The notes under the pieces were generated by a model. That model was not told where the DNA came from, did not search any database, and was given only the letters and a program-made list of their open reading frames with translations. The position numbers and the translations under genes are program-made. From Planctomycetota bacterium (GTDB lineage Bacteria > Planctomycetota > JAJSAM01 > JAJVHW01), in contig JAJRPF010000018.1 in the NCBI GenBank assembly GCA_024280885.1, forward strand, positions 1 through 35,646: 35,646 nt of DNA. The letters are read 5' to 3'. Within the stretch, counting starts at the first letter, position 1. Each line of letters begins with the position of its first letter. Positions 30,057 to 33,806 of this stretch are shown here, one piece after another.

Positions 30057-31109
30057 CTACGCGCGGATGCGGATGTGCTCGTCGGCATTCTCCACGAACG
30101 TCCCGATCCTCGCGGTCGCGGACGTGCCTCGTTCCTGCAACGCCGCCGCGAGCGCGTCGGCTCGTTCGGGGGGGCATGCGATCAGGAGTCCTCCGGAGGT
30201 CTGCGCGTCGGCCACGACCAATCGCTGCCACTCGGGCACCGCGTCGTCGAATTCGAGCCAGGTACCGAAGAATTCGAGGTTGCGTCGCGTACCGCCGGGG
30301 CAGATCCCTGCGTCGAGTGTCTGCTGGACACCATCGAGGATCGGGAGTGCGTCGGCTTCGAGGTCTGCACCAAGACCGGTCTTCGCGAGCATCTCGTGCA
30401 GGTGGCCAGCGAGGCCAAAGCCCGTCACGTCGGTGCACGCGTTGACGCCGATCTCCATCATCGCCTCGGCCGCACTCTTATTGAGTTCCGACATGATCGC
30501 GATCACGCGCTCGGCGCGGACGTCGTCCAGCTTGCCCTTCTTGAGGGCGGTTGTCAGAATCCCGGAGCCGAGTGGCTTGGTGAGAAAGAGCGCATCCCCG
30601 GCCTTCGCGCCCGTGTTCTGTAGCACGCGGTCGGGGTGCACGAGTCCGGTGACCACCATGCCGTACTTGGGCACGTCGTCGTCCACGGAGTGCCCGCCCA
30701 GCACGGAGACACCCGCCTCGGCGGCGACCGAGTCACCACCCGCGAGGACGCGTGCGAGGACCTCGTGACCCAGCGCCTTCATCGGGAAGCACAGGATGTT
30801 CAGTGCGAAGATCGGGCGCCCACCCATGGCGTAGACGTCACTGAATGCGTTCGCCGCGGCAACACGCCCGAATTGGAACGGGTCATCCACCACCGGCGGG
30901 AAGAAGTCGAGTGTCTCGACGAGTGCCTGGTCATCGCTCAGGCGATAGACGGCGGCGTCATCCCCGGTCTCATGCCCCACGAGGATGTTGGGGTCGGACC
31001 TCCGCGGAAGCGCATCCAGCGCCCGCCTGAGATCCTCGGCAGGTATTTTCGCTGCTCACCCGCCGCCGGAGGCGAGGGCTGTCAGCTTGACCGTGCTATG
31101 TGGGCTCAT
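30057..31109 (-). CDS. selD: Selenophosphate synthase SelD, itself a selenocysteine protein (TGA at 31056-31058)
   Basis: Makes selenophosphate from selenide and ATP, the selenium donor for Sec-tRNA. From ATG 31109 (GGAG six bases upstream) the frame runs 17 codons (MSPHSTVKLTALASGGG), meets TGA, then continues AAKIPAEDLRRAL and DPNILVGHETGDDAAVY to the end. Read through, it gives 350 residues, the normal SelD length. Aligned with my recollection of E. coli SelD, the TGA falls exactly on catalytic Cys17, with the essential Lys three residues later. Sec at this site is well known in SelD. Other motifs: NAFSDVYAMGG, GGHSVDD, LTKPLGSGILTTA, TDVTGFGLAGHL and DAQTSGGLL. A caller that stops at TGA would start it at GTG 30980, losing the active site. 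Confidence 0.95.
31022..31043 (-). promoter_or_regulatory. Candidate bacterial SECIS hairpin in selD
   Basis: On the selD mRNA, 12 bases after the TGA, CCUGCC pairs with GGCGGG (one U-G wobble), then GAG pairs with CUC across a GAU loop, with one bulged A. The apical loop begins 21 bases after the UGA and its first base is G. This fits what is known of bacterial SECIS elements (short stem, small loop with early G, loop roughly 16-37 bases from UGA). Confidence 0.7.
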
Positions 31110-31445
31110 GGGATCTCCAGTGCGGGAATTCTGGCGGGCATCTGGGCTGGTAAGTCGGCGTGTAACTGAGCGCGAGCCTGAAGCGCGATCGTCGGCGTGC
31201 GAACGAGCCGCGTCCCGAGCTTGGAACCACGCTCGTGGGCCATCGTATTCCATCGCGCAGCCAGCCTGAAGAGGTGCGGGAATTTGTTCCCCACCGCGAA
31301 TCCACCGCGAGCCCAGAAGAATCCGACTAGGAAGATGGAACCGGAGTCGCTATTGCGTCGTCTCATGTTTCAGGTACTATTACTCGGGTCTAGACAACTG
31401 GGATCGGTCTATGCCCGATCATGACTCCTCTGGGGAGGTAAGAAT
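31110..31445. promoter_or_regulatory. Divergent intergenic region of the selenium genes
   Basis: 336 bp between selD and the secreted selenoprotein gene, with no gene I support. For the plus strand there is a plausible sigma-70 promoter: TTGCGT (31353-31358), 16-bp spacer, TACTAT (31375-31380). Between it and the start lies a 6-bp hairpin GATCGG/CCGATC (31402-31407 with 31415-31420), then GGAGG at 31434-31438. A second small hairpin GGGAA/TTCCC lies at 31278-31291. No clear promoter is seen for selD. Confidence 0.4.
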
Positions 31446-32081
31446 ATGAACAAGCTCATGCTGGCGGGCGTGACAACCGGAATGCTCCTTGTGGGTGGAC
31501 TGGCTTTCGTCCAGCCGTCTTCGGCCGGTTGAGGCCCTCCTTTCATGCCCGGTACGGGCACGAACACGCCGAATCTCAACTGGACCACGTTCGACACGCC
31601 CGGGGTTGTCGAGGCTGCCATCACGGGCATCCTTGCGACTGATCCGACCGATGGCGACGAGGACGAGATGACGGTCGAGGAACTGACCGGCGCCAAGCCG
31701 ATGTTCCTCTACTACTTCCGCCAGGGTCTCGATGACCCGATGGATGACGAGTACAAGTTCTCGCGCCGCTTCGAGATGGGCCTTCAAACGAAGCTCGTCA
31801 AGGAGATCAACGACAACTGGCTCTGCATGAAGGGAGGTATCGACCTCGAAGAGGAACTCGAGAAGAACGAGGAAAAGACTCGTATCGAGTTCTGGTCCGC
31901 GATCGAGACCAAGATGAAGGTCATCTCGATCAGCAAGAAGGATCAGAAGATGCTCGCAGCGGGCCCCATGGTCCGTCTCCTGAAGAAGTACTCCAAGGTC
32001 AGCAAGGGCCTGGCGAACAAGGAGATCAAGCGTCTCGAGAAGATCGAGAAGGACCTGAAGAAGGAGTCGGCCGCCAAGTAG
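31446..32081 (+). CDS. Predicted secreted selenoprotein of unknown family (Sec29 encoded by TGA at 31530-31532)
   Basis: ATG 31446 has an excellent GGAGGTAAG seven bases upstream. The first 27 residues are a signal peptide (MNKLMLAGVTTGMLLVGGL, cleavage likely after SSA). Then come Gly28, an in-frame TGA, and GPPFMPGTGTNTPNLNW, open to TAG at 32081: 211 residues if TGA is selenocysteine. A hairpin with a GUA loop follows 13 bases on. The mature part has KPMFLYYFRQGLDD, which recalls a thioredoxin first strand without CxxC, one cysteine (127, in NWLCMKGG), and a Lys/Glu-rich helical tail. I do not recognise the family. It lies divergent to selD and ends in a terminator. The alternative, a 28-residue peptide plus a protein starting at ATG 31545, would split the signal peptide from its cargo and has only GAGG ten bases upstream. 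Confidence 0.82.
31546..31560 (+). promoter_or_regulatory. Candidate bacterial SECIS hairpin in the secreted selenoprotein gene
   Basis: A perfect 6-bp stem UGCCCG/CGGGCA (31546-31551 with 31555-31560) closes the three-base loop GUA. The loop starts 19 bases after the UGA and opens with G then U, the bases SelB is known to read in bacterial SECIS loops. The hairpin is inside the reading frame, as required in bacteria. Confidence 0.7.
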
Positions 32082-32102: not shown

Positions 32103-32137
32103 AGTCGCCCGGTCGGGTTCCCCGACCGGGCGACTTT
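32103..32137 (+). terminator. Rho-independent terminator after the selenoprotein gene
   Basis: A perfect 15-bp GC-rich stem (32103-32117 with 32121-32135), a three-base loop TTC, and TTT at 32135-32137. It lies 21 bases after the stop codon at 32081. The distance supports 32081 as the true end of an expressed gene. Confidence 0.9.
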
Positions 32138-32414: not shown

Positions 32415-33806
32415 CTACTCCGACGCCTCGGCCGCGACGGCCAGTAGCCGACCGGCTGCCAGCTCCAGTTTCCGCGCCGCCAATGGCTCCATGTCGGTCG
32501 CCGCGCGCGCGATCGCCAGCGCGCAAAACAGGCGGTTGACGCCTGGCTCCAACGCGCCGTGCTCGCCAGCTGCCGCCACATGCGAGCGGGGGAGATGCAA
32601 CGCGCGAACGACAGCCACCGGGTCGCCCAAGACGTCGCGATGCGCGCCACGGACGCGACGCAGAAGGGCGGGCAGCACGTCGTAGGCAGACTCGATGCTC
32701 GATTGAAGCGCGCCGATGAGCGCGTCCTTGCCCGCGTCGCGATCGACCGCTGTGCGGACGCCAGTATCCGCGATGCAGGCCGTCGGCGTGACCGCTTCGC
32801 TGACGCACGGCGCGCTCCAGAACTCGATGGCGTCGGCCGGCGTGATCCCGATCCCGACGTAGATCCCAGGCAGCATGGGGGGCTGGCATCCCCCGACCGC
32901 GTCGCCCAGAGCGTAGCGCGCCTCGACCTTGTCGAACGTGGCGAGCACGAAGCCCATCGTGAAGATGGGATCGCGGCCCGAGAGCTCGTGCAGGTGCGCT
33001 TCCGCAGCATCGAGGAGCATACGGTCGCCCAGGACCCCCTCTTCATCTGCGATGGCGAGGAAGCGCGCGCGCGGATCGGTACCGCCCTCGATACGCGCTT
33101 CGCCGTGCTGTGGCATGGCCGCGAGTGCCGCGTGGACACGCTCGCGCAGCGCACTCTCCGCGGGGTGGTCGCCTGTCAATCTACGCGCATGCCGCCGAAG
33201 CGCGTGGGCCAGTGTGGACCGCAGCGGCTCGTCGTGGCCAGCCGACAGCACGCGCCGCGCGCCGGGAAGCAATGCTGACCAGCTCCGCAATGCAGCGTCG
33301 ATGTCGAGCGCGTGCGCCCCGTCGTGCACGCTGTCGTCGTCGCTGCCCGGCTCGGGGCGTCGTCGTCCGCAACTCCACTTCACCCACTGGGCCAGGAGCT
33401 CCTTCGGATCGTGGAGCGGCCGCGCAGTCTCTCCTCGCTCCGACGGCTTGATCTCCGCCATGCGCTCCAGCGAGAGCTCGACGCGCTCACCGGCGGGGGT
33501 CAACAGACGCAGCTCCGTCGTGTGGTGCGAGATCGCAGCGTCCTCGGTCTCGACGATCAACGCCGCGAGGTCACGCAGCGTCGTCGAGAGAGGTACGAGC
33601 CCGTCCCATGTCGTGGCGATCAGAAGGTGTTGCCATGCGTCGTCCGCCGCCGGCGATCGATGCCCGCTTTCGGTTGCAAGGCGTGCAATGCCGAGCACAC
33701 GCGGGTCCAGCGCGAGTCGATCGATCAGCGGCGCCAGATCGACACCAGGGTTCTTCGTGCCCGCGTCGCCGCGCTCCATGTCACCAGCGCCGGGAGCGGG
33801 GCTCAT
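32415..33806 (-). CDS. Hypothetical protein, partner gene of the FHA protease
   Basis: 463 residues, not recognised. ATG 33806 has GGAG seven bases upstream and starts 13 bases after the protease gene, so the two are almost certainly one operon. No signal peptide or membrane helix is visible. The protein is Ala/Arg/Leu-rich and mostly helical in look, with short distinctive blocks: WQHLLIATTWDGLVPLSTTL, LLAQWVKWSCGRRRPEPG, GDAVGGCQPPMLPGIYVGIG and EFWSAPCVSEAV. The last two lie in a Gly/Pro-rich region (about 300-345). Third-position GC is like its neighbours, so it is a real gene. It may be a regulator, inhibitor or substrate of the protease, but this is guesswork from position. Confidence 0.8.
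   Translation of the reverse strand: MSPAPGAGDMERGDAGTKNPGVDLAPLIDRLALDPRVLGIARLATESGHRSPAADDAWQHLLIATTWDGLVPLSTTLRDLAALIVETEDAAISHHTTELRLLTPAGERVELSLERMAEIKPSERGETARPLHDPKELLAQWVKWSCGRRRPEPGSDDDSVHDGAHALDIDAALRSWSALLPGARRVLSAGHDEPLRSTLAHALRRHARRLTGDHPAESALRERVHAALAAMPQHGEARIEGGTDPRARFLAIADEEGVLGDRMLLDAAEAHLHELSGRDPIFTMGFVLATFDKVEARYALGDAVGGCQPPMLPGIYVGIGITPADAIEFWSAPCVSEAVTPTACIADTGVRTAVDRDAGKDALIGALQSSIESAYDVLPALLRRVRGAHRDVLGDPVAVVRALHLPRSHVAAAGEHGALEPGVNRLFCALAIARAATDMEPLAARKLELAAGRLLAVAAEASE

Follow-up and report, generated by a model that had tools for sequence, protein, structure and literature searches.

In a 35,646-nucleotide (nt) stretch of DNA from a Planctomycetota bacterium (GenBank assembly GCA_024280885.1, contig JAJRPF010000018.1, positions 1 to 35,646; hereafter, the window), a gene near one end is interrupted by an in-frame TGA codon at 31530 that is very likely read as selenocysteine (Sec), making its product, as judged from sequence, a selenoprotein. 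We adopt this reading, with Sec at residue 29, because the TGA recurs in 12 genomes, because cysteine replaces it in 8 of 8 relatives whose gene calls span the site, because hairpins of the Sec insertion sequence (SECIS) type follow it at 11 of the 12 loci, and because the same genome encodes complete Sec machinery. The first-pass annotation, made from the letters of the window alone, had placed a Sec29 near the mature N terminus of a secreted protein, and these lines of evidence uphold it. The protein very likely belongs to a selenoprotein family for which we found no description, a predicted variant of the thioredoxin fold in which Sec lies outside the fold. The gene and its parts, all on the forward (+) strand, are as follows.

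31446 to 32081 (+): selenoprotein gene as read from the sequence, 211 codons including one TGA, with a TAG stop at 32079 to 32081
31432 to 31438 (+): ribosome binding site GGGGAGG, 7 bases 5' of the ATG, read by eye
31446 to 31526 (+): predicted signal peptide, residues 1 to 27, ending in SSA, a signal peptidase I pattern (pattern only)
31530 to 31532 (+): in-frame TGA, predicted Sec29, from the sequence and homologous loci
31533 to 31580 (+): arm of 16 residues between Sec29 and Trp46, of low model confidence to about residue 40
31546 to 31560 (+): SECIS-like hairpin, TGCCCG-GTA-CGGGCA, with G first in the loop and 19 nt from TGA to loop
31662 to 32078 (+): predicted thioredoxin-like domain without CxxC, followed by a long C-terminal helix, residues 73 to 211 (model)

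The ribosome binding site, the signal peptide-like start and the TGA between two glycine codons, preceded by 28 codons and followed by 182 more, are all present in the sequence as first described. Around the TGA the protein reads SSA and then Gly28-Sec29-Gly-Pro-Pro-Phe, and cleavage after Ala27, predicted by pattern only, would place the mature start at Gly28-Sec29. Cys127 is the sole cysteine of the protein, and the arm has neither cysteine nor histidine.

Recurrence of the TGA in other genomes

The genome containing the window (G000) belongs to a class sampled by nine genomes. A full-length frame with exactly one TGA occurs in all five genomes of its family, G000 included, and the four other proteins are 41 to 69% identical to that of the window (P0001); no homologue was found in the remaining four genomes from the order and class. 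With the single protein as query, 392 genomes of the phylum yielded only the same five, and a profile that included cysteine forms matched eight of the 392: those five, G009 (from another part of the phylum), G202, and G188. The G188 match (L049) is weak, its contig ends upstream, and it was counted as neither a Sec nor a Cys form. When contigs were searched, the single protein found none, and an alignment query found four Planctomycetota contigs.

Outside the family, the N-terminal region of the G009 protein reads PAQAG-U-GGPPFTCGNG. This relative (L048) also has an insert between arm and domain with two CxxC pairs (CTGCG...CNGCK) that resembles a zinc ribbon. The G202 protein matched over the folded domain only, but its frame nonetheless has a TGA behind the signal peptide, in the context ASAFG-U-VGGRCG. 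A search with this protein matched 6 of the 14 genomes of its class, and in each of these the mature end carries a TGA (AFG-U-VGG, GFG-U-GSG, GFG-U-GPNCG, GFG-U-GPGCG, DSG-U-CPGG, and DSG-U-CPTA); the TGA lies inside the search match itself in G202, G224, and G191. These six form a second subfamily, and aligning the profiles of the two groups links it to the first (124 columns, 15% identity, probability of 96.6, E = 5.8e-10 for the single pair compared). The total is thus 12 Sec loci, that of the window and 11 relatives in other genomes. Near the mature end, the three copies in G202 itself (L054, L060, and L061) have Sec, Cys, and neither residue, respectively. Among the same-family genes, nonsynonymous divergence (dN) is lower than synonymous divergence (dS) on both sides of the TGA.

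Cysteine forms and truncated records among database relatives

Three protein searches yielded 77 distinct database proteins. Gene calls span the TGA position in eight of these, and all eight align a cysteine with it; because the aligner often puts a lone Met at position 1, spanning was defined as having eight residues at or before residue 30. The first-pass annotation had looked to homologues for Cys or TGA at this site, and cysteine in every spanning protein together with TGA at 12 loci bears it out. In seven of the eight, the cysteine sits in a cluster of four or five. A midpoint-rooted tree of 81 rows places the eight Cys forms on one branch, together with one truncated call. One of them, P0078, has a proline where the others carry their second arm cysteine, as does the window's protein, which leaves the Sec or Cys as the constant element.

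The remaining 69 of the 77 relatives are called from starts downstream of the TGA position and were not counted as Sec forms, but such late starts are as expected if a UGA interrupts these genes. Their records therefore lack both the export signal and what is likely the active residue. P0002, which is 98% identical to the window's protein and comes from a different strain or assembly, likewise starts at Met34, disfavoring a sequencing error as the source of the TGA. At the other end of the protein, lysine is the C-terminal residue in 72 of 78 proteins (P0001 and its relatives), usually as Ala-Lys (50 of 78), which amounts to a conserved charged end.

SECIS-type hairpins

A catalogue of selenoproteins from 2026 (PMC13188914) gives, for bacterial SECIS elements, a loop of 3 to 9 nt with a G in one of the first two positions, a stem of 4 to 16 bp, a distance of 16 to 37 nt from the UGA, and an energy of at most -7.5. 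Scored against these limits with ungapped stems only, 11 of the 12 Sec loci pass. The hairpin of the window, with an energy of -8.6, confirms the G-first loop that the first-pass annotation saw 13 bases past the TGA. Across the 12 loci, the hairpins lie 18 to 27 nt from the UGA, with loops of GGN in eight, GTA in the window, GTC in G202, and GCTGGA in two.

Only 152 of 1,435 control TGAs from the same loci pass the same test (10.6%). Treating all 12 loci as independent gives P = 2e-10, but the loci are related, so we rely on six author-defined sequence groups, 5 of which pass (binomial P of about 7e-5). The hairpin of the window alone is unremarkable: 65 of the 818 TGAs in the window (7.9%, the Sec29 TGA included) have a hairpin within the limits, and the 46-base stretch has a folding energy just 1.57 standard deviations below that of shuffled sequences, 17 of 200 shuffles being as good. 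It is the recurrence across homologous loci that is remarkable.

The stem is conserved in four same-family genomes, in which 3 of 3 four-fold sites within it are fixed, as opposed to 4 of 25 outside codons +1 to +10, and in which the third loop base varies freely. The hairpin of the window has different letters and is shifted by one base relative to the other four same-family genomes, with its G-first loop in nearly the same place; because of this shift, compensatory changes in one fixed register are not claimed for the family. A stem pair of the second subfamily has changed on both sides (C-G in G224, A-T in G122), a single case.

Sec machinery and neighboring genes

The genome containing the window encodes selA (at C50, 504.5 bits), selB (at C29, 331 bits with its neighbors in the frame), a tRNA-Sec (at C5, 72.1 bits, with a gathering threshold of 47), and, in the window, a Sec-type selD (389.5 bits); selA was also found in G009, G202, and G188. 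Two further features flank the selenoprotein gene.

30057 to 31109 (-): selD (selenophosphate synthetase), the divergent neighbor, whose codon 18 (31056 to 31058) is an in-frame TGA
32104 to 32134 (no strand assigned): 14-bp hairpin between convergent genes, a possible terminator with a weak T run, paired by eye

That the divergent neighbor is selD, with a TGA of its own, had not been pointed out in the first-pass annotation. The context of this TGA is SGGG-U-AAK, and the list of open reading frames begins the gene at 30980; its own hairpin falls within the SECIS limits only at their far end (37 nt, -7.7). The terminator claimed for the selenoprotein gene stands in part: a 14-bp hairpin is there, but its T run is poor and a terminator scan did not list it. 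Rfam covariance models found nothing in the window at their gathering thresholds.

selD adjoins the selenoprotein gene divergently in G000, G003, and G002, lies 1.5 kb away in G004, and is on a separate contig in G001. Other neighbors recur as well. Convergent to the selenoprotein gene in the window is a gene (32415 to 33806, minus strand) for a 463-residue protein without a Pfam match, and homologues of 450 to 476 residues (39 to 49% identity) occur at the corresponding position in G003, G002, and G001. In G000, G003, and G002 this gene is followed by one for an FHA-trypsin protein; on the far side of selD, G000, G003, and G004 carry a gene for a GGDEF protein. With several neighbors kept, the adjacency of selD was taken to say little about function. 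In G004, a frame between selD and the selenoprotein gene (L044, 4638 to 5834, minus strand) carries CPPC and matches Thioredoxin_7 just under its cutoff, a possible redox partner.

Predicted fold and the position of Sec

A structure model built from a 74-row alignment, which omits P0006 (the G003 protein), was used, since a five-sequence model was poor (predicted local distance difference test score of 58). The predicted fold is thioredoxin-like and closest to the gamma domain of DsbD. Neither CxxC nor UxxC follows strand 1 in any of the 74 rows (72 cover the stretch) or of eight rows from the second group, and the protein was therefore not filed with the thioredoxin family proper. Sec instead lies ahead of the domain, on an arm that ranges from 16 to 74 residues in length. 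A sequence search of the Protein Data Bank gave one match, at a meaningless E of 0.58.

Within the family, a cysteine six residues after Sec (UxxxxxC) occurs in four of the five proteins, the exception being that of the window, from which it has been lost. The first-pass annotation suggested that Sec29 pairs with Cys127; this residue is indeed the only cysteine of the protein, but as a conserved partner it was rejected, with Cys present in just 28 of 74 rows. In the second subfamily, all eight rows have a cysteine at the equivalent place, where it may play a part. The G003 protein contains a single cysteine in all.

Matches to named families were sparse, as anticipated when the first-pass annotation could put no name to the protein. 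Against NCBIfam 20.0, the members scanned gave only sub-threshold matches to unrelated families, and TIGR02389 was dismissed as far under its cutoff. The nearest Pfam family is DUF6261 (cutoff of 27 bits), which P0001 matches at 16.5 bits (E = 0.0083); of four relatives scored from the same branch, P0016 came just above the cutoff at 27.2 bits and the others gave 14.0 to 22.2. The match spans the second half of the protein, mostly the long helix, and is lacking in the five Cys forms scanned and in the second group; we have not built on it. By names and motifs, the only basis of comparison, the 119 families listed in the catalogue (PMC13188914) include no counterpart. Titles and the beginnings of abstracts yielded no description of the family, although an earlier one may exist. 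An account of the selenoproteins of two other planctomycetes (PMC4807772) names formate dehydrogenase and formylmethanofuran dehydrogenase among them.

Discussion

As the best explanation of these observations we lean, with moderate confidence, toward Sec on the N-terminal arm as the working group of an exported redox protein. Because the fold is kept but its CxxC is lost, we take the arm Sec to be the working group and the body to be a docking platform. As for mechanism, we give about an even chance to a selenol that acts from the mobile N-terminal arm of a secreted redox protein. Insertion of Sec along the pathway that bacteria normally use is strongly supported, with the hairpin after the UGA as its likely signal. 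Export followed by cleavage after Ala27 (predicted by pattern) would leave Sec as the second residue of the mature protein. A selenol at that place would be ionized and exposed. This selenol or selenolate would serve as the working group of a thiol/selenol redox protein outside the cell, and the mobility of the arm would let it reach substrates or a partner reductase. Where the arm has a cysteine (UxxxxxC), Sec may pair with it, possibly as a selenenylsulfide; in the window's protein, the partner would be Cys127 or an outside thiol. The thioredoxin-like body would act as a scaffold or docking domain.

Several observations weigh against this account. Three of the six second-subfamily matches begin past the TGA, and there the frame was read upstream of the match; two distant G202 paralogues lack U, L060 having Cys in its place and L061 neither. 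Downstream of the TGA, the most distant same-family pair has nearly equal divergences (dN of 0.586, dS of 0.613). Within the second subfamily, the check for Sec machinery covers one of the six genomes, G202, by its selA. The G202 hairpin fails the energy limit (-6.2), taken one sequence at a time, the folding energies of most loci do not reach significance (z of 0.13 to -2.19), and the positive control is crude, as the Sec site of selD could be anchored in three genomes (from 11 sources), one of which passes. As for function, Foldseek returned nothing at an E of 0.001 or better, the low confidence of the arm in the model means that there is no structural sign of Sec meeting the body, and the lack of an arm cysteine in the window's protein shows that pairing of Sec with Cys is no universal feature.

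The main rival, which we regard as unlikely, holds that Sec at the mature N terminus is a ligand for a soft metal or metalloid, such as mercury or copper, and that the domain is a mere carrier. The close cysteines of the seven clustered Cys forms, for example C-x2-C-x3-C-x-C in P0040, do look more like a metal site than like a dithiol, and the catalogue, as far as its listed families go, includes metal-related selenoproteins (PMC13188914). The arm of the window's protein, however, offers a single Sec, with neither Cys nor His, the G003 protein has just one Cys altogether, and no metal-transport family turned up among the neighboring frames scanned. Capture or sensing of selenium by an exported protein tied to the adjacent selD appears improbable: the arrangement in G000, G003, G002, and, more loosely, G004 speaks for it, but selD is elsewhere in G001, the conservation of other neighbors may reflect inherited gene order, and Cys forms exist. 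It is still harder to credit Sec as the lipidated +1 residue of a lipoprotein signal that tethers the protein to the membrane. The PROSITE lipobox pattern fits U in three of seven Sec forms tested, including that of the window, and the first Cys of P0077, whereas a stricter form, [LVI][ASTVI][GAS]C, fits none of 15 Sec and Cys forms, a set that covers 7 of the 12 Sec forms. Other members have Asp or Gln at the -3 position, and a signal peptidase I pattern fits better by eye.

The possibility that the protein is not a selenoprotein, the TGA ending a short leader and a separate protein starting at a downstream ATG, strikes us as scarcely plausible. Such an ATG exists in the window at 31545, the 69 late-called relatives agree with it, and TGA is the ordinary stop of 11 of the 20 window genes picked as likely. 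The first-pass annotation had named consistent starts at the equivalent of this ATG as one observation that would count against a selenoprotein; late calls do abound, yet the ATG is absent from the four other same-family genomes. A downstream start also leaves aside the signal peptide, the UGPPF block, and the frame conserved on both sides of the TGA, as well as the cysteine in spanning relatives, and the hairpins and Sec machinery fit readthrough.

Returning to Sec as the working group of a redox protein, the family may extend to an exported planctomycete superfamily in which the thioredoxin-like body has lost its active site and the redox center has moved to the tip of a flexible N-terminal arm, with two subfamilies and one Cys-cluster clade, a grouping that we consider as apt to fail as to hold. 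The subfamilies occur in different classes and differ in their arms (16 versus 56 to 74 residues), and Sec would be presented at the mature end as Gly-Sec or Phe-Gly-Sec. If these readings are true, they add a selenoprotein family of unusual layout, they imply that a thioredoxin-like fold can persist without CxxC and with Sec placed on a tail, and they provide Sec and Cys versions of one protein with which to probe what selenium contributes outside the cell. They also suggest that a conserved UGA exactly at the end of a signal peptide is a cheap sign by which further Sec families could be found.

Comparison with known systems

Among the closest parallels are the Sec-containing thioredoxin-like proteins, namely, the UxxC thioredoxins and the DsbA-, DsbG-, and TlpA-like proteins entered in Table 1 of PMC13188914, which have the same predicted fold, one Sec, and Cys homologues. 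Unlike these, the present proteins have no CxxC or UxxC after strand 1 in the 74 rows or in the eight of the second group, and their Sec is not part of the fold but sits at the N terminus of the mature protein. The motif GUxG given in that catalogue for "hypothetical protein DG" (NF049953) fits G009 (GUGG) and G202 (GUVG), but the likeness is loose and by motif only, and the members scanned have no NCBIfam 20.0 match. In comparison with the DsbD gamma and DsbH-like domains, the proteins described here have no CxxC and no DsbD membrane domain, and identity is 10 to 16%; a fold common with DsbD gamma does not show a common function.

Two other systems share part of the layout. ERp29 is a thioredoxin-fold protein of the endoplasmic reticulum without CxxC, and, as here, helices follow a fold that lacks an active site, but ERp29 is eukaryotic and has no Sec. 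Its structure 2qc7 stands at rank 32 in Foldseek, and its helical domain gave weak, sub-threshold Pfam matches in three relatives (E of 0.024 to 0.058), which are not significant. Mammalian thioredoxin reductase has a C-terminal GCUG arm, with Sec beside Gly on a flexible chain end. The resemblance is an analogy only, as that arm is C-terminal and belongs to a flavoenzyme that depends on a eukaryotic SECIS. Lastly, although SelD is an enzyme of known function with which no sequence likeness was noticed, its Sec form, the product of the neighboring gene, also carries its Sec in a flexible N-terminal stretch.
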